Shown: positions 3,603-25,720 of the stretch, piece after piece
Numbering within the stretch: the stretch's first letter is position 1
How the letters are laid out: the number at the start of each line of letters is the position of its first letter
Assembly (NCBI GenBank): GCA_012267425.1
Contig: JAAXGO010000166.1
Location: forward strand, 1-35,654
DNA from: Rhodothermales bacterium
GTDB lineage: Bacteria; Bacteroidota; Rhodothermia; Rhodothermales; Bin80
Reading direction: 5' to 3'
DNA length: 35,654 nt
Program-made: the position numbers and the translations under genes
Notes under the pieces: model-generated
What the model was told of the DNA's origin: nothing
The model's input: only the letters and a program-made list of their open reading frames with translations
The model's database searches: none

Positions 3603-4642
3603 AGATTCCGATCAGGAACATCTACTATCTCCTCTGCTACGCCTGGGGCCACGTTGGGGAAGGGGAGACGGTCGATGTCGGATCCGAGAAGTTCGGCGGG
3701 CTGGTCGACCTGTTCGCCAAGGTTCTGAACGAAGGCGTCTCGCGGCTCGTCTCCCGCGGGCTCGATCGCGACTACCTTTCCATCCACGAAGACATCCGCG
3801 GACTCAAGGGCAAGCTCGATCTCGCGACCACGATAAAGCGGAATCTGCTGCTGAACGGCAAGACGCACTGCGCCTTCGACGAACTGAGCTACGACGTGTC
3901 TCAGAACCGGATTCTCAAGGCGACTCTGCACAGTCTGACTCTGGTTACGACCTTGGATCCGGCCGAGAGACGGCGGACTGAACGCCTGTATAGGAAGCTG
4001 GACGCGGTCTCCGATGTCCGGCTCACCGCGAGTCTGTTCCGCACCGTCCAGATCCACCGGAACAACCGGTTCTACAACTTCCTCCTGCACCTCTGCCGCA
4101 TCATCTACGAGAATCTCCTAGTGAATGAAGAGGAAGGGACGGCACAGTTCCGCGACTTCCGCGAGGACGAGCACCAGATGGGTCTGGTGTTCCAGCAGTT
4201 CGTGAGGACGTTCTGCGAACGGGAGACGGACTACCGGGTGAGCGCGCCCAGGATCAACTGGTTCGGGGCGGAGGGAAGCAAGACGGACCTCCGGCACCTT
4301 CCGGGCATGCAGACCGACATCGTGCTGCGGTCGCCCGAACGCACGATCATCGCCGACACCAAGTTCTACAAGCATCCGTTGGTTACTTCGCAGTTCGGCG
4401 GCAGGCGGGTCCGTTCGGGCCACCTCTACCAGATCTTTGCCTATGTGACGAACTGGGCTGCGGAGGCCTCTTCTCACGATCCTGAGCCGGAGGGGTGGCT
4501 GCTCTATGCTGCGGTTAATGGCGATTTCGACTACCGTTTTGAGCTTGTGAAGCGGCGGATCCGGGCGTGTTCGATCGATCTGTCGCAGAAGTGGCGAGAG
4601 ATTGAGACGGACCTGCGGAAGTTGGTGGATGGGGGAGAATAG
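3599..4642 (+). CDS. mcrC: McrC-family nuclease subunit
   Basis: IPIRNIYYLLCYAWG N-terminus and PD-(D/E)XK-like TDIVLRSPERTIIADTKFYK. GTG start overlaps the mcrB stop (GTGA). Confidence 0.93.
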   Translation: MKIPIRNIYYLLCYAWGHVGEGETVDVGSEKFGGLVDLFAKVLNEGVSRLVSRGLDRDYLSIHEDIRGLKGKLDLATTIKRNLLLNGKTHCAFDELSYDVSQNRILKATLHSLTLVTTLDPAERRRTERLYRKLDAVSDVRLTASLFRTVQIHRNNRFYNFLLHLCRIIYENLLVNEEEGTAQFRDFREDEHQMGLVFQQFVRTFCERETDYRVSAPRINWFGAEGSKTDLRHLPGMQTDIVLRSPERTIIADTKFYKHPLVTSQFGGRRVRSGHLYQIFAYVTNWAAEASSHDPEPEGWLLYAAVNGDFDYRFELVKRRIRACSIDLSQKWREIETDLRKLVDGGE

Positions 4643-4901
4643 AATCGGGAGGGTTGTTACTCGAAGGGAGTCGCGAGGCCGGTCACAGATGGCTCAGCCT
4701 CGGCGCGGGAACCGCCGCTGGACAAACCGGAGACGGGATTGGGTTAGGACGACGAAACCGCTCTTGGGGGAGCGGGAGATTGCCTGGTTTGGCGGATCTA
4801 TCGACTTTTCCTCGCTCCGAACTTCGTCCGTCGCCGTCCCATTCGATCCGGCGTCATCCCGCTCACATGTGCATATTCTACGAAGTGATACGCGAACCAC
4901 A

Positions 4902-4916
4902 GTTATGAATCATAAC
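4902..4916. promoter_or_regulatory. Perfect 15-bp palindrome GTTATGAATCATAAC (operator-like)
   Basis: 7+1+7 inverted repeat; a further TTATGATT lies at about 4935-4942. Confidence 0.35.
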
Positions 4917-5024
4917 CCATTGTCATACAACATCTTATGATTGTTGCTACTAGTTCGAAGCGGAGCTTGTTCTCAGCCCTAACGGTCTTAGAACGGAAGG
5001 ATCCTGATCCCGAAAATCGCAGCC

Positions 5025-5693
5025 TTAGCTTCGTCGGCTAAGCAGATGGGCTTGCCGCGTAGGCTCCGGAATCCTGTAGCCCCGAGCGAACGAGAGCGTA
5101 AGGCACTCAGCCTCCATGAGTGTAATGCGGTGACCTACACTCACGAATACGGGCTGTACGTGATCACGCGTGCGGACTACGGTACCGAGCCGTTCGTGAG
5201 TTCTCTCGTCGAGGAGAGGCGTTGTGCATCCTTTTTTCGGTCCGGGTTCGTCATGTCGCCCGACGTACCGCTTTTTCGCCACACCGAATGTCGGACAGTC
5301 GAGCTGCACGCCCAAATGGCAGGCGAGCCCGAAGCGGCGGGGATGGGCAAGGCCGTGGCCGTCTGTCACGATGACGTCGGGTAGAGAGGAAAAAGACTCG
5401 AGTGCCGGAATGACAACGGGCAGCTCCCGGAAGGACAGCAGCCCGGGTACGTACGGAAATGGAACGTCGGCGCGCCGCAGGACACTGTCGACGATTACGA
5501 GGTCAGGAATGCTCAGAACCACAATCGCTACGTGTGCCAGACCGTCACGAATGCTCACGTCAACGCCAGCTACTGTACGGGGAGGACGCGCCAACACTTG
5601 TTCCCGGACGTGTACTGCAAGCCGGCGCTGGAGCTCGACAGCCTGCTTAGGTGACAGATTCCACGAGTGCGGATGCCGGAGCGAGAGTTTCAC
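5025..5693 (-). CDS. nfi: Endonuclease V
   Basis: VAGVDVSIRDGLAHVAIVVLS..., YVPGLLSFRELPVVIPAL, DVIVTDGHGLAHPRRFGLACHLGV, GVAKKRYVG: hallmark EndoV blocks. Confidence 0.93.
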   Translation of the reverse strand: MKLSLRHPHSWNLSPKQAVELQRRLAVHVREQVLARPPRTVAGVDVSIRDGLAHVAIVVLSIPDLVIVDSVLRRADVPFPYVPGLLSFRELPVVIPALESFSSLPDVIVTDGHGLAHPRRFGLACHLGVQLDCPTFGVAKKRYVGRHDEPGPKKGCTTPLLDERTHERLGTVVRTRDHVQPVFVSVGHRITLMEAECLTLSFARGYRIPEPTRQAHLLSRRS

Positions 5694-5720
5694 GGCGGGA
5701 CAATTGGGAGGCTGTCGGCG

Positions 5721-5748
5721 TTGACCCTTAGATTAGCGCTCATATAGT
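5721..5748 (+). promoter_or_regulatory. Sigma70-like promoter TTGACC-N16-TATAGT
   Basis: The -10 ends 8 nt before the ATG at 5757, so the transcript would be nearly leaderless. Confidence 0.5.
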
Positions 5749-5756
5749 CGCTCTGC

Positions 5757-6398
5757 ATGAAGTTCCTGTTTCCGGTACTCCTGTTGACCTTTCTTTCCGG
5801 ACGCGCGTCCGCTCAGGAAGTCGGAGGCAAGTCACCGGGCAAGGCGGCCGCACTCAGTCTTCTAGCACCGGGCTTTGGACACCGGTATGTGCACGAAGGC
5901 CGGTGGCAGGGATCAGCGGCGTACTACGTCCTGGCCGATGCAAGTTTCTGGCTCTCGCTTGTAGGCGTTGAATGGCATGCACAGCAGACGGCGGAGAGTT
6001 ACCGAACGTTGGCAACCAGTCGCGCCGGCGTAAGCCTGGCGGACAAGGACCGCCGGTTCCTCATCAACCTCGGGCTGTACAGGTCGTCGGAAGAATATCG
6101 CGAAGACCATTTGCGCCGCCGCCTGTGGGATCGGATCTACTACGTGGATGTGCCGGGATTTCAGTGGGAGTGGCAGTCCGAGGAAGACTTGATGCGATAT
6201 CGGAGCCTGAGGGAGGAGGCCGACACCTGGGAAAGGCGGCGGATACTTCTGATTTCGGCGTTGGCCACCAACCGCATCCTGGCCGTCATGACGTCGCTTC
6301 TTGCCGCGCGCCGTCAAGGGCCTAATCTAGTGCTGGCTGTTGCTCCGCCGCCCGCGCAGACACGCTGGCCTATCGTGCATTTTACCGTGGGATTCTGA
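5757..6398 (+). CDS. Secreted/membrane protein of unknown function (DUF5683-like)
   Basis: Signal peptide MKFLFPVLLLTFLSGRASAQ; ALSLLAPGFGHRYVHEGRWQGSAAYY motif. Confidence 0.7.
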   Translation: MKFLFPVLLLTFLSGRASAQEVGGKSPGKAAALSLLAPGFGHRYVHEGRWQGSAAYYVLADASFWLSLVGVEWHAQQTAESYRTLATSRAGVSLADKDRRFLINLGLYRSSEEYREDHLRRRLWDRIYYVDVPGFQWEWQSEEDLMRYRSLREEADTWERRRILLISALATNRILAVMTSLLAARRQGPNLVLAVAPPPAQTRWPIVHFTVGF

Positions 6399-6474
6399 CG
6401 GGCTCGGGACCTGCAGCCCGGCGTGGACGTAACAAAGCGGTTCAGGCGGGTTGCAGCATTGACTGACTCGGTTC

Positions 6475-6551
6475 GGGTCCTTAGCTCAGTTGGTTAGAGC
6501 GCTACGTTGACATCGTAGAGGTCGATGGTTCGAATCCATTAGGACCCACCA
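6475..6551 (+). tRNA. tRNA-Val(GAC)
   Basis: Full cloverleaf: acceptor GGGTCCT/AGGACCC, D-arm GCTC..GAGC, anticodon arm CTACG-TTGACAT-CGTAG, T-arm GATGG-TTCGAAT-CCATT, encoded ACCA. Confidence 0.95.
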
Positions 6552-6715
6552 CCGGACTGACCCGGGGGGAAGTTGCACAGGTCTGGATTCCGGCGCGGAA
6601 TTGGCAATGCGGCGGGAAACCTTCCGTCGCTTCCGTAGATTCCAACTGGAGGCCTACGCACGCGCTCCGCCGTGTTCCGAATTCGTCGTACGTTCCATTT
6701 GAGTGAGGCAATACC

Positions 6716-7234
6716 ATCGCAAGAAGACACAGAATCCGTGTAAACGATGACATACGTGCCCTGTATGTTCGAGTCGTAGATCCAAAGGGCAATCACGGAG
6801 TGTATTCGATCGGGCACGCGCTGGAACTGGCCGGGAGGCAGAACCTTGATCTTGTTGAGATAGCGCCGAACGCCGAGCCGCCCGTCTGCAAAATCATGGA
6901 CTTTGGCAAGTATCTCTATGTGCAGAAGAAAAAGGAAAGGGAGTCCAGAAAGCGCCAGCACCAGATGCAGCTGAAGGAGGTACGATTTAGGCCGCGGACA
7001 GATACGCACGATTTCGAGTTCAAGACCAAGCACGCCCGGCAGTTTCTGGAAGAGGGCAACAAGGTGAGGGCCTATGTCCAGTTTCGGGGCCGTGACATCA
7101 TTTACAAGGATCAAGGGATGAAAGTCCTGGCGCGCTTCGTCGACGCTCTCAAGGATGTCGCGAAAATCGACCAGGCACCGCGCATGGAAGGCCGCCGCAT
7201 GACGACCATCCTCGCGCCCTCAAAGCCCAAGTAG
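6716..7234 (+). CDS. infC: Translation initiation factor IF-3, apparent ATC start
   Basis: [68 protein letters not shown]...; in-frame stop upstream; GAGG 7 nt before ATC. Confidence 0.92.
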
Positions 7235-7376
7235 CGTATCAAGATCCTGGGGATTCGGCCGCCGCAGCTTGCCGTGTCCGGCTGAATGCCCTATTCTCGG
7301 TCATCCGCCCACCATTGCGGAACGACACTCGGTCCATTACGTTGACCGGGGCCGATCAAGCCAGGGAGTGAGTCGC

Positions 7377-7571
7377 ATGCCCAAGATGAAGACCAACAGC
7401 GGCGCCAAGAAACGATTTCAGCGCACCGCCACCGGACGCCTCAAGCGCGAGAAAGCCTTCAAAAGCCACATCCTAACTAAGAAGGATGGGAAGCGGAAGC
7501 GCAACTTGGGCAAGAAAGCGCTCGTTCACCCGACCGACCAGCCTCGTATCAACCGGCTTCTTGGAGGCTGA
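7377..7571 (+). CDS. rpmI: 50S ribosomal protein L35
   Basis: [36 protein letters not shown]...; located between infC and rplT. Confidence 0.96.
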
Positions 7572-7610
7572 TTCGGCCCGACAAGGCCAATTCTGACACG
7601 CAAGAACACC

Positions 7611-7961
7611 ATGCCTCGTACACGTAACCGCGTGGCCTCGCGGCGCCGCCGCAAGAAAATTCTCCGCATGGCAAAGGGCTATTGGGGAGGTCGCAGTAAG
7701 ATCTACACCGTGGCCAAGCATGCGGTCGAGAAAGGGCTGCAATACGCCTACCGCGACCGACGCAAACGCAAACAGCAATTCCGTCGGCTGTGGATTTCTC
7801 GCATCAACGCCGCAGCACGCCTTAATGGAACGACCTACGGGCGACTGATGCACGCGCTTGACAAAGCGGGAATCAGCCTGAACCGCAAGGCGCTTGCTGA
7901 TCTCGCCATGCATGATCCCGCTGCGTTCACACGCGTGGTGCAGGTGGCCAACGATGTATAG
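7611..7961 (+). CDS. rplT: 50S ribosomal protein L20
   Basis: [70 protein letters not shown]. Confidence 0.97.
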
Positions 7962-7968
7962 TTCAGTG

Positions 7969-8013
7969 ATGGACGCCCATCGAAACCGATTTTTCTTCGG
8001 CGCCTTTCCCTGA
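7969..8013 (+). CDS. Putative pheST leader peptide MDAHRNRFFFGAFP
   Basis: 14 codons, four Phe (three consecutive), directly upstream of a hairpin set and terminator preceding pheS. Confidence 0.78.
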   Translation: MDAHRNRFFFGAFP

Positions 8014-8022
8014 AGGGGGCGC
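8000..8022 (+). promoter_or_regulatory. Attenuator 5' (pause) hairpin GCGCC-TTT-CCC-TGAA-GGG-GGCGC
   Basis: Overlaps the last Phe codon and the stop of the leader peptide. Its 3' arm GGGGCG (8016-8021) is also complementary to CGCCCC (8062-8067) in the terminator. Confidence 0.65.
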
Positions 8023-8059
8023 TGAGAGGCTGTGGCAAACAGGATGCCCACCATTCAAT

Positions 8060-8097
8060 CCCGCCCCTGCGACGGCAGGTGAGGCGGGTTTTTTTTT
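8060..8097 (+). terminator. Rho-independent terminator/attenuator upstream of pheS
   Basis: CCCGCC CCTGC GACG GCAGG TGA GGCGGG followed by nine T. Confidence 0.88.
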
Positions 8098-8122
8098 GCA
8101 ACGAAGCCGGCGGTAGGCACCG

Positions 8123-9163
8123 ATGAACACGGATGAAAAGACCGCAGCGGAGCTCTTGTCCGGCGACGTTCGGCAGGCGACGGAAGATATTGCAGCCGCT
8201 GATCTTAGTTCTGAGGAGGCTTGCGAGACGTTCCGGGTTCGCTTTTTGGGCCAGCGCAGCGGGATTGTCACGGGGTTGTTCAAGCGTATGAAGAAGCTGC
8301 CCCAGGAGGCACGCCCCGCGGCAGGAAAATCGCTTAATGCACTTCGGAAGCTGGCCACCGACAGGCTCAAAGCGGGGCGTAAGGCACTCAAGGCCGCGCC
8401 AAAGCTGGCAGAGGTTGATCTCACCCTTCCAGGGAGGCGGGCCGTACCTGCAGGATCGGTTCATCCAATTACACAGACGCTAGCTGACATCACCGGAATC
8501 TTCCGGCGCATGGGATTCACCGTCGCGGATGGACCAGAAATCGAAGACGACTGGCACAACTTCACGGCGTTGAACTTCCCGCCAGACCATCCAGCTCGCG
8601 ACATGCAGGATACGCTGTTTTTGGAAGCACCGGAGTCGTCTTCAGGCGGCATCATGCTGCGCACGCACACTTCTCCGGTCCAGATCCGGGCGATGGCTGC
8701 GGGGAATCCGCCGTTTCGGCTGATCGCACCGGGCCGCGTCTATCGCAACGAGACTATCACCTATAAGTCATACTGTCTCTTCCACCAGGTTGAGGGGCTC
8801 GTCGTAGACGAAGGCGTGACGATGGCGGATCTGAAGCACGTGCTCTTTACGTTTGCACGCGCCTACTTCAGCGAGGACGTGCGGCTGCGGTTCAGGCCCA
8901 GTTTTTTCCCATTTACCGAACCAAGCGCAGAGCTCGACATCTGGTGGGACTTGCCCGAGAAGCCGGGAGAAGGGCGCTGGATGGAAATCCTGGGCTCAGG
9001 CATGGTCGATCCGAACGTACTCGATGCGGTCGGGATAGACTCGGAGAAGTACACCGGCTACGCTTTCGGAATGGGTGTAGAGCGTCCGGCGATGCTGCAG
9101 TACGGCATTGAAGATATCAGGCTGTTCTACGAAAACGACGTGCGATTCCTCGCACAGTTCTAG
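8123..9163 (+). CDS. pheS: Phenylalanine-tRNA ligase alpha subunit
   Basis: HPITQTLADITGIFRRMGFTVADGPEIEDDWHNFTALNFPPDHPARDMQDTLFL..., GMGVERPAMLQYGIEDIRLFYENDVRFLAQF. Confidence 0.97.
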   Translation: MNTDEKTAAELLSGDVRQATEDIAAADLSSEEACETFRVRFLGQRSGIVTGLFKRMKKLPQEARPAAGKSLNALRKLATDRLKAGRKALKAAPKLAEVDLTLPGRRAVPAGSVHPITQTLADITGIFRRMGFTVADGPEIEDDWHNFTALNFPPDHPARDMQDTLFLEAPESSSGGIMLRTHTSPVQIRAMAAGNPPFRLIAPGRVYRNETITYKSYCLFHQVEGLVVDEGVTMADLKHVLFTFARAYFSEDVRLRFRPSFFPFTEPSAELDIWWDLPEKPGEGRWMEILGSGMVDPNVLDAVGIDSEKYTGYAFGMGVERPAMLQYGIEDIRLFYENDVRFLAQF

Positions 9164-9177
9164 GCTGCGGTTGGCCC

Positions 9178-11631
9178 ATGAAGATCTCCATCAGCTGGCT
9201 TAAGGAGTACGTAGACTATTCATATTCGCTCGAGGAGCTGAGCCATGCTCTTACGATGAGCGGATTGGAGGTCGAAGAGGCCGCGGTTGTAGGAGAATCA
9301 CTTGACGACGTGGCCGTGGGATGCGTTCTCGAAGTACGACCACATCCGAACGCCGACCGCCTAACCGTATGCCAGGTTGACGTCGGTGATGACTCGCCTT
9401 TGCAGATCATCTGCGGCGCACCCAACGTGGCTGCGGGCCAGCATGTCGCAGTTGCACGCGTCGGCGCCAAACTCATGCTGCCAAGCCGTGAGAATCCTGC
9501 CGAATCAGTTCCTGTAACGATCAAGAAGACAAAGATCAGGGGCGAGTGGTCCGATGGCATGATCTGCGCGGAAGACGAACTGGGTCTATCCAGCGACCAT
9601 TCAGGCATTATGGTACTCCCGGACGATGCCGAGGTGGGAGAGGCTTTCGACGACTACCTCGGCCGGCGAGGCCTCTTTGCGCGCGATGCTACGCTTGACA
9701 TCGCTGTGACGCCAAACCGTCCGGACGCCATCTGCCACGTCGGCGTGGCGCGTGACGTGGCGGCACTCACAGGAGCCGATCTCGTGCGTCCTGACGTGAA
9801 ATTGCCGCAGGCGGGCGGCGAGACCGCAAAGCACGTCATCGTTGAAATCAAGTGCCCTGACGCATGCCGCAGGTACGTCGCGCTTCTGGTACGCGGCGTT
9901 ACGATCCGGGACTCGCCGACGTGGATGAAGCGTCGACTGGAGGCTGTCGGTCTTCGCTCGATCAACAACGTCGTTGACATCACCAACTACGTGATGCACG
10001 AATGCGGCCAGCCTCTGCACGCGTTCGATTACGACCGAATTCGAGGTGGCCGCATCGTAGTGCGACAGTCTCCAGAAGGGGAGCGCTTCACGACGCTTGA
10101 CGGCAAGGACCACATCTTGATGAAAGGAACGGTGCTGATCTGCGACGCAGGGCGTTCCGTCGCGCTCGGCGGCATGATGGGTGGTGCAAACTCAGAGGTT
10201 GACGAGACCACGACAAATGTCCTCATCGAAAGTGCCTGGTTCGACCCGTACATCACGCGCAGGGCGGCCAAAAAGTTGGGACTTTCAACGGATGCATCGT
10301 ACCGCTTCGAGCGCGGCGTTGATTCCGATGGACAGGTATGGGCAGCGGCTCGGGCCGCACAACTGATGGTGGATCTGGGTGGAGGCACACTCGTGTCCGG
10401 CATGGTAGACGCCCACCCTAATCTCCTTGAGATGCCTGTAATTGATTTGCGTCTCGCGCGTATTGCACACGTCTTGGGCACCGACATCCCACGCCCGGAG
10501 GTCGTGCGCATTCTACGTGCGTTAGGATTTGGGGTAGCCGAAGCAGAAGGTGACATCCTTCGCTGCCAGGTTCCTACGCACCGCCCAGACGTGGAGCGCG
10601 AAATCGATATCATCGAGGAAGTAGCCAGAATCCACGGGTATGACGCGATTGCAGAGCCTCGAAGCACACCGATTCCGAGCTTCGTGCCGAGCGAGCGGCA
10701 GGCGGACCTCCTGCGTTCGGCCATCAGTACCTATCTCGTTGGAAGAGGCTACAGGGAAATCGTAACGAACTCGCTGCTGGGCAGGGAAGAAGCGGAGCGC
10801 TTCATCGATCCAGTGCTGGGCCGAACGGGCCCCGTCGTTGAAACGCTCAACGCGGTGTCGCAGTCCATGACGACGCTTAGGCCGAGATTGCTGCCCGGGA
10901 TGCTGCGAGTGATGGAACACAATCAGAATCACGGGCAACGCGCGCTGCGATTCTACGAATTCGGGCACGTCTTTCGGCGCACAAATGGCACTGGAACGTT
11001 TATTGACGGCTACGACGAAGGCGAGGCGTTCATCATGGGAGTAACGGGTCTCGATGCCCCGACGACCTGGGATCGTAAGCCCCGCGAGGCCGACATTTTT
11101 GATCTCAAAGGCGACGTAGAGTCGATCTTCGAGCAACTCCACGTTCCGAGGGTCCGTTTCGAGGCGCACAACGAGGCTACGCAGCTTACCAACTACCGCC
11201 TTACGGTTTATTCGGGGGACATCCCTCTAGGTAGTATTGCGCGCGCAAAGGCCGACTTACGTACGCCTGTTTACTTTGCCGAATTCGACTGGACGCAGTT
11301 TGTTCACCTGTGCGGAGCGCAATCCCACACCACGTATCGGGCCGTCGAACGCCATCCGACGGTTGAGCGCGACATAGCCGTTGTGGTTGCCAAGTGCGAA
11401 GCTGTTGGCCCTATGACGGCCGCCATCCGAAAGAGTGGTGGACCACTGTTAAAGAGCGTGGAAGTATTTGACCTCTACCAGGGCGAGCGGATAGAACCGG
11501 ACGCCAAGAGCGTTGCCTTCGCCCTTTGCTTCGGTGCCGACAAGACGCTGACAGATGAGGAAGTAGACTACCGCGTACGCGCAATCGTTCGGCGCTTGGC
11601 GAAGAAATTCGGAGCAAAACTCCGCCAATAA
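9178..11631 (+). CDS. pheT: Phenylalanine-tRNA ligase beta subunit
   Basis: MKISISWLKEYVDYSYSLEELSHALTMSGLEVEE...; tRNA-binding domain VGCVLEVRPHPNADRLTVCQVDVG; adjacent to pheS. Confidence 0.97.
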   Translation: MKISISWLKEYVDYSYSLEELSHALTMSGLEVEEAAVVGESLDDVAVGCVLEVRPHPNADRLTVCQVDVGDDSPLQIICGAPNVAAGQHVAVARVGAKLMLPSRENPAESVPVTIKKTKIRGEWSDGMICAEDELGLSSDHSGIMVLPDDAEVGEAFDDYLGRRGLFARDATLDIAVTPNRPDAICHVGVARDVAALTGADLVRPDVKLPQAGGETAKHVIVEIKCPDACRRYVALLVRGVTIRDSPTWMKRRLEAVGLRSINNVVDITNYVMHECGQPLHAFDYDRIRGGRIVVRQSPEGERFTTLDGKDHILMKGTVLICDAGRSVALGGMMGGANSEVDETTTNVLIESAWFDPYITRRAAKKLGLSTDASYRFERGVDSDGQVWAAARAAQLMVDLGGGTLVSGMVDAHPNLLEMPVIDLRLARIAHVLGTDIPRPEVVRILRALGFGVAEAEGDILRCQVPTHRPDVEREIDIIEEVARIHGYDAIAEPRSTPIPSFVPSERQADLLRSAISTYLVGRGYREIVTNSLLGREEAERFIDPVLGRTGPVVETLNAVSQSMTTLRPRLLPGMLRVMEHNQNHGQRALRFYEFGHVFRRTNGTGTFIDGYDEGEAFIMGVTGLDAPTTWDRKPREADIFDLKGDVESIFEQLHVPRVRFEAHNEATQLTNYRLTVYSGDIPLGSIARAKADLRTPVYFAEFDWTQFVHLCGAQSHTTYRAVERHPTVERDIAVVVAKCEAVGPMTAAIRKSGGPLLKSVEVFDLYQGERIEPDAKSVAFALCFGADKTLTDEEVDYRVRAIVRRLAKKFGAKLRQ

Positions 11632-20213: not shown

Positions 20214-21512
20214 ATGGATACATACGACCGCCCGCAAGTACGGCGCATCATCGAACTCGTGAAGGAAGGCCCGACCATGCGGATCGTTGCAATTACCGGT
20301 CCTCGGCAGACCGGGAAGACGACGATTGCAGTCCGGGCATGCCAACTGCTGGCCGAGTCGGGGTATACGTGTTGGTACGTTGCCACGGACGACCCAACCC
20401 CTGCCCAGTTTCCTTTGCTGGGGTGGCCGGACGCCATAGACATCGCTCTGGTGGGTGCCACGCCCGACGGGGCGTGGCTTGTCGAACTCTGGGAGCGCGC
20501 GCGCCGAGCCTCTGTGCGATCCGAGCGGGGCTTGGTGCTGATGCTCGACGAGATTCAGCTCGTCCCGAACTGGTCGGGCATCGTGAAGGGACTCTGGGAC
20601 AGGGATCGGCGAGCGGGATACCCCCTCCGTGTTGTAGTCCTGGGGTCGGCCTCCTGGCGGATGCTCACCGGATTGAACGAGAGCTTGGTCGGTCGGTTCG
20701 ACGCGTTGCCGACTACTCACTGGTCACTCCGGGAGATGGCGACGGCATTTGATCTGTCCGTTGATGAGTATCTGTTCTTTGGTGGATATCCGGGTGCGTT
20801 ATCCGAGGGATCGGGAACCGAGAGGCTCGCCGCTTGGCAGAATCACATCACGCACTCAATTGTCGCGCCCACCATAGATCGGGACATCGTTGGGCTGGCA
20901 CGGGTCAGGAAACCGGCGCTGATGCGCCAGGTGATGGATCTGGCACCGCAGTATTCCGGTAAGCTCATATCCTACAACAAGCTGCTCGGCCAGCTTCAGG
21001 ACGTTGGCAACACGACGACCGTCGCCCGGTACCTCGATCTCCTTTCCGACGCGGGCCTAGTCACTGCCTTGTCCCGATACACACCGGCCCCACACGGGGG
21101 GAGAGCCTCTCCTCCCAAACTCATTGTGCTCAATACGGCGCTAATGACGGCACCGTCCGGATACACGTTCAAAGAAGCGCGGGCTGATCGATCCTATTGG
21201 GGTCGGCTTGTGGAGAGCGCAGTGGGCGCGCATCTCTACAACACTCGCGGTACCGCGACCCGGCTCCACTTCTGGCGCGTCCCTCCGCACGAAGTCGACT
21301 TCGTCATCGCCCGCGGCCCCCACTTGCTCGGGATTGAGGTCAAGAGCGGGAAATCACGGAGCCAATCCGGTCTGGACGCCTTCGCCGACCGCTTCCGAGA
21401 CGCCAGGACGGTGGTGGTAGGTACGGGTGGAATTCCACTCAACGAGTTCCTGATGCTGGGCGCTGACGATTGGCTGGAAGAGATATGCAATCGCTTGTAC
21501 CCCGCACCGTAA
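20214..21512 (+). CDS. AAA family ATPase with C-terminal DUF4143-like domain
   Basis: ITGPRQTGKTTIAVRACQLL (Walker A); LVLMLDEIQLVPNWSGIVKGLWD (Walker B); LGSASWRMLTGLNESLVGRF; C-terminal HFWRVPPHEVDFVIARGPHLLGIEVKSGKS. Confidence 0.88.
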   Translation: MDTYDRPQVRRIIELVKEGPTMRIVAITGPRQTGKTTIAVRACQLLAESGYTCWYVATDDPTPAQFPLLGWPDAIDIALVGATPDGAWLVELWERARRASVRSERGLVLMLDEIQLVPNWSGIVKGLWDRDRRAGYPLRVVVLGSASWRMLTGLNESLVGRFDALPTTHWSLREMATAFDLSVDEYLFFGGYPGALSEGSGTERLAAWQNHITHSIVAPTIDRDIVGLARVRKPALMRQVMDLAPQYSGKLISYNKLLGQLQDVGNTTTVARYLDLLSDAGLVTALSRYTPAPHGGRASPPKLIVLNTALMTAPSGYTFKEARADRSYWGRLVESAVGAHLYNTRGTATRLHFWRVPPHEVDFVIARGPHLLGIEVKSGKSRSQSGLDAFADRFRDARTVVVGTGGIPLNEFLMLGADDWLEEICNRLYPAP

Positions 21513-24500
21513 AACTGATTGAGCCGAGGGACGACGAGCGGTTCGAACATGAGAGCCTGTCGTTGACCCACTTCCGGTCGGACCACGGCTACGTCCTGTT
21601 GGGTGAGCCAGGCCTGGGCAAGAGCACGGAGTTCAAGACGGAAGCTCACCGGGTATGCGCTCCAGATCCCATCACGGCGCGACGCTTCATGAGTCGAAGC
21701 CTCGAGGGTCATCCCGACTGGCACGGAGGAGGACCGCTCTTCATTGACGGACTGGACGAGGCGCGTGCCGGTGGTGCGGATCCGAGAGCACCACTGGACA
21801 AGATTCTGGGTCGGCTCGAGGCGCTGGGGAGCCCCCCGTTCCGCCTGTCGTGCCGCTCTGGTAGCTGGCTGGGACCTGGAGATCAGCGGGAATTCTCCTC
21901 CCTTTCGGGTGCTGCACCGATTCGGGTCCTGCAGCTGAACCCGCTGGATCGAGAGGGCATTCGGCAAATCGTTTCTCGCCAGCGAGACGACGCCGACGAA
22001 TTCATACTCGTGGCCTTCGAGCACGGGCTGGATGCCTTCCTTTGGAATCCTCAGTTGCTCATGGTACTCCTCAACTCTGTGGAGGTAGCTGGCTGGCCTG
22101 ATAGCCCCAGCGCGGCCTTCGAGAGAGCCTGCCAGGAGCTAGTTGGGGAACGGAACAATGAGCACCGGGACGCCCGCCGTGGGATGGCGCGACCCTCCCG
22201 CGATGCAGTTCTAAGCGCGGTAGGAAAGCTGGCGGCGCTGATGTTGATCGCCGGCAAGGGTGGCTGGACGACAACCGATTCGGACGATCCCGACATTCTC
22301 TCCTTGAGTCAAGTGGAAGGTGGGGACAGGAACACCCTGTTTGCTGCTCTGGAGTCTGGACTTTTCAGAGGTCCCTCCACTTGCCGAATCCCGACTCATC
22401 GGCTTGTGGCCGAGTTTCTGGGTGCCAGATACTTGGACGAAAGGATTCGCGCTCGCGACGGAGTAACCGTGAGGCGCACGCTTTCGCTGCTCATGGGTGA
22501 TGACGCGATTCCCCTGCCCGATCTCCGGGGGCTTTCCGCCTGGCTCGCTGCCGTGAGCCCCCAAGCCAGGACGACCTTGATTCGCGCGGATCCAGTTGCC
22601 GTGGCGTTCGACGGAGACGCGAGCAGTTTTGAGGCTAGGGAGCGAAGGGAGCTGTTCGAAAACCTTGAGAAAAGCACCGAGTTTGGGCGCGTCTGGCCTT
22701 CTGTGGTCGCCCTCGGTGCCTTTGCCGGCAGCCAAGGTAAGGCGGTGATCTGGGAGTTGACAGCTTCTTCTTTACGCTCAGACGTTAGGCAGCATCTTGT
22801 TCTTCTCCTCCTCTCCGGCTTCCCGCGGATGGTTCATTCTCGTACGGAAGGGAGTATCGGTCCTCCAGCGCAATCGGCCTCTGACCGTGTCGTATTGCTG
22901 GACATCGTCCGCGACGCAACGTGGTGGTCTGATGTCCGCTGCCAGGCTCTTCGCGTCCTGGACCAAGTTCTTTACGACAACCCGATCCGGTGCGCTACGC
23001 TGCGCGGACTCGTGGAAGACATTGAAGAAGAGCGGCTCCCGGACGAACGGAACAAGCTGTTTGGCACGCTGCTTGACATCATGTATCCAAGAGATCTGCC
23101 GCCGGCGGAAATCTGGGATCATCTCGCCGTTCCCCCCTACCCGCACCGCTTTGACACCTACCAGAAATTCTGGACCGGTCTCGTGGACACGTCCAGCGAC
23201 GAGCAGATCAGGGAGTTGCTCGACTCGCTATGCGCTCGTGCATCCGAAGTGGTTCCGAGGCTGGCGAACCAGCAGCTGGACAACATCGTTCTCAAGCTCG
23301 TCGCGCGCGGGCTCGATCTGTTCGGGGACCAACTGGACACACGCTCGATCTACCACTGGTTCGAGCTCGTGGAAGTGGACCTTGAACGGTTGCGATTGGT
23401 CCCGGCGGGTAGCGGGGGTCGCCGGCGCGGCGGCTTCGATACCGAGGCTGAGGAGGCGATCAGGACTTGGCTGAGGTCGCGTCAACGAGTCCAATACGAA
23501 CTTGTTGAGGCCGGCCTTCACAGGCGGGAGTCCGAAATCGGGCATAAACTCCTTAATGTAACGATCGGCCGGAAATTCCTGGGAGAAGAGTCGCCAGCCG
23601 GGTTTCGCCAATGGTGTCTCGTGCGCGCGGCGAAGCTTTGGGACAGGCGGCCGAAGATCGCAGAAGAACTTGCTTGGTGGGCGATTCGCTCGCTGGAGGG
23701 CTGGGATCCGCCATTGTCCGACGACGAAGTAGCGCACGCCGCGCGAGACACGCCAGCCTTGCGGGAGTGGAACAGCAAGCGCCTTGAGGCCAAGGCGCGC
23801 TGCAAACGCAAGGATGCAGAGAGGAAGAAGCGCGATGCGGAGATGCTGCGGGAACAGCGGCTAGCAGAGATAGCTGCGGTACGGCAGCACACGAAGGAAC
23901 TGGCGGTGGGACGCTGTTCGCCTGCCCTGTTGCACGAACTCGGTCAAGTCTACTTCGACGGTCTTGTTGAGGAAGGACCGGGTAATGGTCCGGTGGCGAG
24001 CCTGGCTTCGTGGTTCGACCACGACAAGATCCTCGTGGAAGCGACGCTGGCAGGATTGCGCAGTCTGCTCGACCGTGCTGATCTGCCGGATCTGGCCCAG
24101 ATCACTAGGTTACATGAGAAGAGGAAACTTTCGTACTTCGCTGTCCCCTTTCTGGCGGGCATGGCTGAGGAGGAGCGCGCGGGCAGCGATCCGCTGGCCC
24201 GTCTAGGTGAGAAGGGAAGGCGGCGAGCGCTGGGCTATTATCTTGTCTCAAGATTGCCCAGCAAGCGATACTTGCCCGACAACGTTCCGATCGCCGAAGA
24301 GGACACTCGCCCGTCTTGGTATTTGCGAGCCCTGGACTCGTATCCCCGGGCTGTGGCCGACGCGCTGGTCGCGGTGCACAACGCCCGCGTCCGCACCAAG
24401 GAGCCGCCGGATCAGCACCTCTACGACATGGGCTTCGATCCGGCATACCAGCGCGTGACACCGATCGCCGCCAAGCGGATGTTCTCTGTCTTTCCAACGC

Positions 24501-25720
24501 GATGCACCAAGCCGCAGTTAGAGTCCTTGCGTCTAGTCCTCTGGGCCGCTACGGGAACTAGTGGTATATCGACCGCCAAGCTGCGTGATCTCGTGCTAAG
24601 GCGACTCCGGCGTAGCAGCATGGACGTAGCGCAGCGGGCTCAGTGGCTTTGCGCCGGTTTGTTCGTCGCCAAGGATGACTGCCTTCCGCTTCTGGTAGAT
24701 TTCCTCGTGGCCGGCGGCGACGCTCGCGTGCGGCATATCGTCGACTTCTTCGGCTCACACGACCGGCGGCGGCGCGGCTCGCTTTCGCTTGAAGGCTGGC
24801 ACGCCGATGAGCTCGCCCAGCTCATCCAGACACTTGGGAGACGCGTTCGTCGATTCAATCCGCCGGAAGGCGCTGGTTTTCTTAGGGATGAGCAGGTGAC
24901 GCAAAGGAAGTTCCAAACCCTGCTCACGTCATGGGTCCGAACGCTCGCTGGGCGCGCCCATGACGAGGCCACCGACGCACTCGAACGGTTGGCTTCCAAT
25001 CCGGATCTAGGCGCGTGGGAAGTAGAGATTATCCAGGCGCGAGAGGCTCAGGCCAAGAAACGCCGCGTGGCCAAGCAGGAAGACCTCACTTTGGCGCAGA
25101 TCCAAGAAACTCTCCGGGGCGGCGCCCCTGCCAGTGTCACGGACCTCACCGCATTTGTGCTCGATGCTCTCGAACAGTTGGGGGAGCGTATCCGGAATGG
25201 TCCCACGAGCGACTGGCTCCAGTATTGGCACCGAGATCCGGAATCACGGCGGAGGCTACTGGAGCCTCAGCACGAGGACGACTGCCGTAACGCGCTGCTC
25301 TCGGATCTAGCGCAGATGCTGCAGCCGTACAATGTCGATGCACAGGCAGAGGGTCGATATGCCGATGACAATAGAGCGGATATCCGAGTGGCGGCCGGCT
25401 CCCAACTCGCGATCCCGATAGAGATCAAGAAGAACTCGCATCGCGACATTTGGCGCGCGGTGGACGAACAGCTGGTGGCGAAGTACACACGCGCGCCGGA
25501 ATCTGGTGGTCACGGAGTCTACCTGGCGCTCTGGTTCGGGCCAGACTATATGAAGGTGGTGCCGCCTCACGGACGCTTGCCCAAGACACCGGCCGAGTTG
25601 AAGGAACGACTCGAAGAGCAGCTCGCTCCGAGGCTCTGGGCCAAGATCGGCATCGTCGTGATCGATGTAAGCCCGTCCGGCAGGTACGGACGAGACGGGA
25701 CGGGTGGGTCTGCGGCCTGA
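21485..25720 (+). CDS. Large STAND/NACHT-like NTPase with C-terminal PD-(D/E)XK-like nuclease domain; candidate defence effector
   Basis: P-loop YVLLGEPGLGKSTEF; Walker B GGPLFIDGLDEARAG; long helical middle; C-terminal HEDDCRNALLSDLAQML...RADIRVAAGSQLAIPIEIKKNSHRDIW. Start ATG 21485 or TTG 21470, both inside the upstream gene. Confidence 0.82.
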   Translation: MQSLVPRTVKLIEPRDDERFEHESLSLTHFRSDHGYVLLGEPGLGKSTEFKTEAHRVCAPDPITARRFMSRSLEGHPDWHGGGPLFIDGLDEARAGGADPRAPLDKILGRLEALGSPPFRLSCRSGSWLGPGDQREFSSLSGAAPIRVLQLNPLDREGIRQIVSRQRDDADEFILVAFEHGLDAFLWNPQLLMVLLNSVEVAGWPDSPSAAFERACQELVGERNNEHRDARRGMARPSRDAVLSAVGKLAALMLIAGKGGWTTTDSDDPDILSLSQVEGGDRNTLFAALESGLFRGPSTCRIPTHRLVAEFLGARYLDERIRARDGVTVRRTLSLLMGDDAIPLPDLRGLSAWLAAVSPQARTTLIRADPVAVAFDGDASSFEARERRELFENLEKSTEFGRVWPSVVALGAFAGSQGKAVIWELTASSLRSDVRQHLVLLLLSGFPRMVHSRTEGSIGPPAQSASDRVVLLDIVRDATWWSDVRCQALRVLDQVLYDNPIRCATLRGLVEDIEEERLPDERNKLFGTLLDIMYPRDLPPAEIWDHLAVPPYPHRFDTYQKFWTGLVDTSSDEQIRELLDSLCARASEVVPRLANQQLDNIVLKLVARGLDLFGDQLDTRSIYHWFELVEVDLERLRLVPAGSGGRRRGGFDTEAEEAIRTWLRSRQRVQYELVEAGLHRRESEIGHKLLNVTIGRKFLGEESPAGFRQWCLVRAAKLWDRRPKIAEELAWWAIRSLEGWDPPLSDDEVAHAARDTPALREWNSKRLEAKARCKRKDAERKKRDAEMLREQRLAEIAAVRQHTKELAVGRCSPALLHELGQVYFDGLVEEGPGNGPVASLASWFDHDKILVEATLAGLRSLLDRADLPDLAQITRLHEKRKLSYFAVPFLAGMAEEERAGSDPLARLGEKGRRRALGYYLVSRLPSKRYLPDNVPIAEEDTRPSWYLRALDSYPRAVADALVAVHNARVRTKEPPDQHLYDMGFDPAYQRVTPIAAKRMFSVFPTRCTKPQLESLRLVLWAATGTSGISTAKLRDLVLRRLRRSSMDVAQRAQWLCAGLFVAKDDCLPLLVDFLVAGGDARVRHIVDFFGSHDRRRRGSLSLEGWHADELAQLIQTLGRRVRRFNPPEGAGFLRDEQVTQRKFQTLLTSWVRTLAGRAHDEATDALERLASNPDLGAWEVEIIQAREAQAKKRRVAKQEDLTLAQIQETLRGGAPASVTDLTAFVLDALEQLGERIRNGPTSDWLQYWHRDPESRRRLLEPQHEDDCRNALLSDLAQMLQPYNVDAQAEGRYADDNRADIRVAAGSQLAIPIEIKKNSHRDIWRAVDEQLVAKYTRAPESGGHGVYLALWFGPDYMKVVPPHGRLPKTPAELKERLEEQLAPRLWAKIGIVVIDVSPSGRYGRDGTGGSAA

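Follow-up and report, generated by a model that had tools for sequence, protein, structure and literature searches.

The stretch of DNA analysed here (the window) comprises 35,654 nucleotides of contig JAAXGO010000166.1 from a Rhodothermales bacterium (GenBank assembly GCA_012267425.1). On its forward strand lie two overlapping genes, which a sequence-only reading had described as an ATPase gene with a frame of 1411-1416 amino acids starting inside its 3' end. We confirm this arrangement, and the overlap is 28 nucleotides from the ATG at 21485, the start that aligns with relatives. Residue numbers for ORF2 are counted from the alternative TTG start. The pair is laid out as follows.

20214 to 21512, plus strand: ORF1, an AAA_14 ATPase plus DUF4143 protein of 432 amino acids (PADLOC PDC-S01, model PDLC04791), the EruA-linked partner
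21470, plus strand: alternative TTG start of ORF2, giving 1416 amino acids
21485 to 25720, plus strand: ORF2, a predicted EruA-type NACHT nuclease of 1411 amino acids from the ATG at 21485
21485 to 21512, plus strand: overlap of 28 nucleotides between the ORF1 3' end and the ORF2 ATG start

The overlapping frames suggest that translation of ORF1 and ORF2 is coupled. Invariant motifs in the alignments of both proteins rule out a chance or artefactual annotation of the pair. A promoter and terminator scan of the region upstream of the pair revealed nothing beyond chance level.

ORF1 carries matches to Pfam AAA_14 (E=2e-17) and DUF4143 (E=2e-25), and it aligns end to end with the PADLOC model PDLC04791 for PDC-S01 (E=6e-133, 441 bits, residues 4-420), a profile that is also matched by all 16 partners tested. 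We take DUF4143 to have a PD-(D/E)XK-like nuclease fold, an assignment made from its motif. The ATPase and nuclease-like residues of ORF1 are conserved in all or nearly all of the aligned partners.

20298 to 20324, plus strand: ORF1 Walker A GPRQTGKTT, residues 29-37, with K35 invariant in 59/59 partners
20535 to 20552, plus strand: ORF1 Walker B VLMLDE, residues 108-113, with D112 and E113 invariant in 59/59
20877 to 21350, plus strand: ORF1 DUF4143 domain, residues 222-379, E=2e-25
21291 to 21344, plus strand: ORF1 PD-(D/E)XK-like motif EVDFV...GIEVK, residues 360-377, with D362 kept in 57/59, E375 in 57/59 and K377 in 58/59

ORF2 is not matched in Pfam or in PADLOC, and sequence searches of the PDB with either protein gave no useful match. 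Over nearly its whole length, however, ORF2 aligns with the NCBIfam model NF058535, "NACHT domain-containing antiphage protein EruA" (E=5e-214, residues 22-1401 to profile positions 8-1318). Its score of 714 bits falls below the curated equivalog cut-off of 1000, and we therefore file it as a divergent EruA-type protein and not as an EruA equivalog. The same profile is matched by all 14 close relatives. Matches below the cut-off also occur in the control genomes Methanocaldococcus jannaschii and Methanosarcina acetivorans. The EruA of PMC12839154 is an unrelated E. coli regulator.

21485 to 22670, plus strand: ORF2 NACHT module, approximately residues 6-400, from the AlphaFold2 model and Foldseek
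21602 to 21628, plus strand: ORF2 P-loop GEPGLGKST, residues 45-53, with K51 in 77/77
21740 to 21760, plus strand: ORF2 Walker B FIDGLDE, residues 91-97, with D93, D96 and E97 in 77/77
22671 to 25036, plus strand: ORF2 helical-repeat middle, approximately residues 401-1189, helical in the model up to residue 640 and lowest in conservation
25037 to 25702, plus strand: PD-(D/E)XK-like nuclease domain at the ORF2 C-terminus, spanning residues 1190-1411 and modelled with a mean pLDDT of 89.7
25379 to 25429, plus strand: ORF2 putative catalytic D1304 and E1318-x-K1320, from alignment conservation

For residues 6-640 of ORF2, an AlphaFold2 model built with 76 sequences has a mean pLDDT of 91.1 and finds NOD2 as its best Foldseek match (E=7e-7), followed by NLRP3, NLRC4 and Avs4 (1e-4). 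Together with a Walker A motif and a Walker B of the form DxxDE, this NACHT fold bears out the N-terminal NACHT/STAND NTPase that had been proposed from the letters. All the motifs quoted at that stage are present (LLGEPGLGKS at 43-52, FIDGLDE at 91-97, EDDCR at 1269-1273, RADIRV at 1302-1307 and PIEIKK at 1316-1321), and the repeat-like helical middle is likewise seen in the model, which ends at residue 640. The helices that follow the NACHT module give weak Kap95/importin-like matches. Conservation counts for ORF2 derive from 79 aligned proteins, 77 of which have letters at the sites in question; the two ends, NACHT and nuclease, are the most conserved and the stretch between them is less so, consistent with the middle being a presumed sensor arm.

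The model of the C-terminus displays an alpha-beta core whose strands bear D1304 and E1318-x-K1320. Fold matches in the PDB are weak, with none below E=0.001 and the best (E=0.011) being a non-nuclease, although most of the top 50 are proteins that we take to be PD-(D/E)XK superfamily members (Can2, EcoRV, SwaI, PfoI, McrC, Mus81, EndoMS and DdmD). The motif E..D..ExK..Q is nearly invariant in the family (E1269 77/77, D1304 75/77, E1318 76/77, K1320 75/77, Q1334 76/77). Model topology, residue positions and conservation thus place in this region the alpha-beta core with E..D..ExK by which the superfamily is recognized. The confident model, the weak matches and the conserved motif all support the nuclease-like C-terminus that had been proposed, and the tail of ORF2 is likely a DNA-cutting PD-(D/E)XK-like domain. 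Four EruA-type copies have altered nuclease residues with an intact P-loop: L019 (ExK replaced by VVINR), L103 (D-V-R), L033 (G for D1304) and L026 (R for K1320).

Nucleases of the PD-(D/E)XK type are also found in anti-plasmid systems, and the presence of DdmD among the weak fold matches would fit a pair directed at plasmids or mobile elements of another kind instead of phages. However, the one relative family that has a name carries an antiphage annotation, and we consider such a specificity quite improbable.

A scan of GTDB genomes yielded 80 EruA-type loci, and three more came from viral contigs. The GTDB loci are distributed among Rhodothermota/Bacteroidota, Gemmatimonadota, Acidobacteriota, Chloroflexota, Actinomycetota, Nitrospinota, Latescibacterota, Thermodesulfobacteriota, Pseudomonadota and Chlorobiota. 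By the ORF1-family profile, about 65 of the 78 loci with enough flanking sequence, spanning about ten phyla, have a partner gene immediately upstream in the same orientation (62 were called by script, two more, L047 and L053, were recognized by eye, and L084 is a fusion; L051 and L100 are weak matches). Of the 57 unfused pairs in which the partner match is strong, 48 have overlapping genes; the overlap is most commonly 4 nucleotides and mostly 4-25. At L084 (positions 4630-10128, from a Thermoanaerobaculia bin), a single 1832 amino acid frame in one metagenome assembly encodes both proteins and retains the two catalytic motifs, a natural fusion. Pairwise distances of partners and EruA-type proteins are correlated across 59 pairs (r=0.86, reached in 0 of 1000 permutations); because shared ancestry of neighbouring genes inflates this value, it demonstrates co-inheritance rather than contact. 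The expectation that the two genes would co-occur elsewhere thus holds.

An intact pair is also present on a contig classed as viral (L108, IMGVR_UViG_3300022743_000214). An uncontrolled PADLOC scan of 140 ORFs flanking paired loci returned matches to DpdF, PsyrT, DarG and MzaA/MzaE, as well as to reverse transcriptase, Cas1 and methyltransferase models; we do not count these defence-type neighbours as proof of a defence role. Many EruA-type loci come from isolates with the prefixes RHO, CAR, COS and APA, which we assume denote marine-sponge metagenomes; the host is a marine bacterium, probably associated with sponges.

The fusion and the gene order place the DUF4143 domain of ORF1 beside the NACHT module at its N-terminal edge, the position of the effector in Avs and bNACHT proteins. 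ORF1 might consequently be the main effector, acting in trans when the NACHT protein senses an invader. In addition to this placement immediately N-terminal to the NACHT module, the conserved DUF4143 motif speaks for such a role, as does the retention of the partner motif in L103 and L026, whose ORF2 nuclease residues are altered. However, ORF2 keeps its own C-terminal nuclease residues in 75-77 of 77 rows, and the nuclease activity of DUF4143 is putative. We regard ORF1 as main effector as possible, if somewhat doubtful.

The distribution of the partner family bears on how tightly the two genes are tied. Across the host's family plus one further member of the order, all 34 full-length partner genes adjoin an EruA-type gene, and the unpaired partner copies in the host's relatives are fragments or carry stop codons. 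These relatives suggested that the partner family is always linked to EruA, an idea ruled out by another phylum, in which 29 of 30 PDLC04791 loci have no adjacent EruA. In a partner tree, 60 EruA-linked and 24 stand-alone partners are separated by a single branch (SH-aLRT 99), and linkage changes once as opposed to 21 times in shuffles, a result to be read with the rooting in mind and with stand-alone genes sampled from one phylum. Linked partners from Desulfobulbus group with the linked set, and the split is therefore not merely taxonomic. EruA-linked partners thus appear, with good support in this sequence tree, to be one EruA-specific group within PDC-S01.

The EruA-less loci of the other phylum, and the common occurrence of solo EruA, could mean that PDC-S01 and EruA are independent defence-island systems that travel together. 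Against this explanation stand the overlap of the two frames, their fusion in one case, the single group formed by EruA-linked partners and the adjacency of every one of the 34 full-length partners in the relatives searched, and we judge it very unlikely.

EruA-type proteins do occur alone. No DUF4143 partner lies upstream of above-cut-off EruA in 12 of 12 Pseudomonadaceae genomes, and around the plasmid-borne relatives from Pantoea, Vibrio, Bradyrhizobium, Agrobacterium and Burkholderia the partner profile gives no match over a distance of about 5 kb. Encoding of the partner elsewhere was ruled out for eight solo-EruA genomes, where no partner-like gene was found at E<=1e-10 with a query that does find matches in the host's relatives. 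In the vicinity of the solo homologue on the Pantoea plasmid are an integrase, an Abi gene and ppl, which is an antiphage gene; a search for an E. coli EruA by DNA similarity to this copy found no match. Solo members are found at several places in the EruA tree (8 changes), and the Pseudomonas members L077 and L085 are nested inside a paired group, so partner loss has probably occurred. Given about 13 relatives and the 12/12 above-cut-off proteins that lack a partner, EruA-type proteins are not always partner-dependent.

These solo proteins are relevant to a further possibility, that ORF1 is a restrainer, akin to an antitoxin or guard, that keeps ORF2 inactive until infection removes it. The upstream position and translational coupling of ORF1 resemble those of antitoxin-toxin operons, and the strong co-inheritance would also be expected. 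A passive inhibitor, however, would hardly need the ATPase and ExK residues that 57-59 of 59 ORF1 copies maintain, and solo EruA relatives manage without an ORF1 homologue, with none elsewhere in the eight genomes tested. We therefore view the restrainer as unlikely.

The pair is flanked by aroK (SKI, E=5e-36) and truA (E=2e-42). In order-level relatives the gene order rnhB-aroK-truA-kelch is conserved, with divergent aroK and truA, and in six of the loci read the distance between the alignable parts of these two genes is below about 150 bp. Since aroK and truA are neighbours in relatives and are separated by the pair in the window, the pair was inserted there, in agreement with the original suggestion. 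Some relatives, namely L172, L163, L161 and L169, have a wider aroK-truA spacing of about 0.5-1.3 kb, with an extra ORF in L172 and L163. The aroK-truA junction may be a recurrent insertion site.

The host genome is a bin of about 90% completeness and 7% contamination that has about two further EruA copies (L002-L005, on contigs C13, C34 and C311 of host genome G000). One copy is apparently split between the end of contig C13 and the start of C34. Another, on C311, has an open frame but is missing about 375 middle residues (aligned at 6-418 and then at 792-1201). Genomes of the host's family (G002-G015) contain up to seven EruA-type matches each, some of which are fragments or have internal stops, which suggests repeated gain and decay of EruA-type genes in this family. 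The closest EruA relative, at 67% identity, is found in a Gemmatimonadota bin, pointing to transfer of the gene between phyla if that bin is clean.

We consider it likely that ORF1 and ORF2 constitute a two-gene variant of the EruA-type NACHT defence system and operate as follows. The helical-repeat middle of ORF2 would sense a component of a phage or mobile element, upon which the NACHT module would switch and oligomerise with ATP. This switching would activate the C-terminal PD-(D/E)XK nuclease, which might cut the DNA of the invader or of the cell and thereby stop the infection; phage defence by the copy in the window would be the presumed outcome. ORF1 would be a dedicated subunit, co-transcribed with ORF2 and translated in a coupled manner. 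It probably contacts the NACHT module at its N-terminal edge, and there it might engage DNA or license activation.

More tentatively, and with rather less than even confidence, we propose a split NLR-like complex that carries a nuclease-type domain at either end. The separately encoded DUF4143 ATPase, a subunit dedicated to EruA, would dock on the NACHT module from its N-terminal side, acting in trans as an effector or loader, and the C-terminal nuclease would serve as a second blade. If true, this would provide the first mechanism for this branch of PDC-S01 and would mean that bacterial STAND immunity can be built in a new way.

The locus had been called a candidate undescribed defence system, and this holds only in part. 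The EruA family is already named as antiphage in NCBIfam and ORF1 belongs to PDC-S01, so that the novelty seems to reside in the pair, no description of which was found in the literature covered (preprints and most subscription journals lay outside it). That literature likewise yielded no account of EruA or HyoA as phage-defence proteins or of a DUF4143 defence system. Among prokaryotic defence systems PDC-S01 is reported to rank fourth in frequency, and experimental validation is pending for most PDCs (PMC12988326). The pair gives one branch of this very common candidate defence gene its first partner. Since the pair links one well-supported PDC-S01 group, through a conserved operon that is fused in one case, to a predicted NACHT nuclease from a family already named as antiphage, the function of that group can be probed with just two genes and a handful of point mutations.

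Among known systems, PDC-S01 is matched by ORF1 end to end, but unlike ORF1 its loci in the other phylum almost all lack EruA. EruA (NF058535) is collinear with ORF2 over its full length, with an N-terminal NACHT module, helical repeats and the same C-terminus, whereas its above-cut-off Pseudomonadaceae members lack the overlapping DUF4143 ATPase that accompanies ORF2. HyoA (NF058534) can be aligned only in its C-terminal part (E=2e-31, residues 943-1358) and far more weakly than EruA, at 108 bits against a cut-off of 1200. Avs (AVAST) and bNACHT systems also combine a STAND/NACHT switch with a nuclease, and Avs4 is among the fold matches of ORF2. bNACHT proteins, however, have an N-terminal effector, a central NACHT domain and a C-terminal sensor (PMC12169576). 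As the initial reading had anticipated, models and motifs place the NTPase of ORF2 at the N-terminus and its nuclease at the C-terminus, with a second gene in addition. This STAND layout, with a C-terminal nuclease and an ATPase partner on the N-terminal side, reverses the usual order of effector, switch and sensor.
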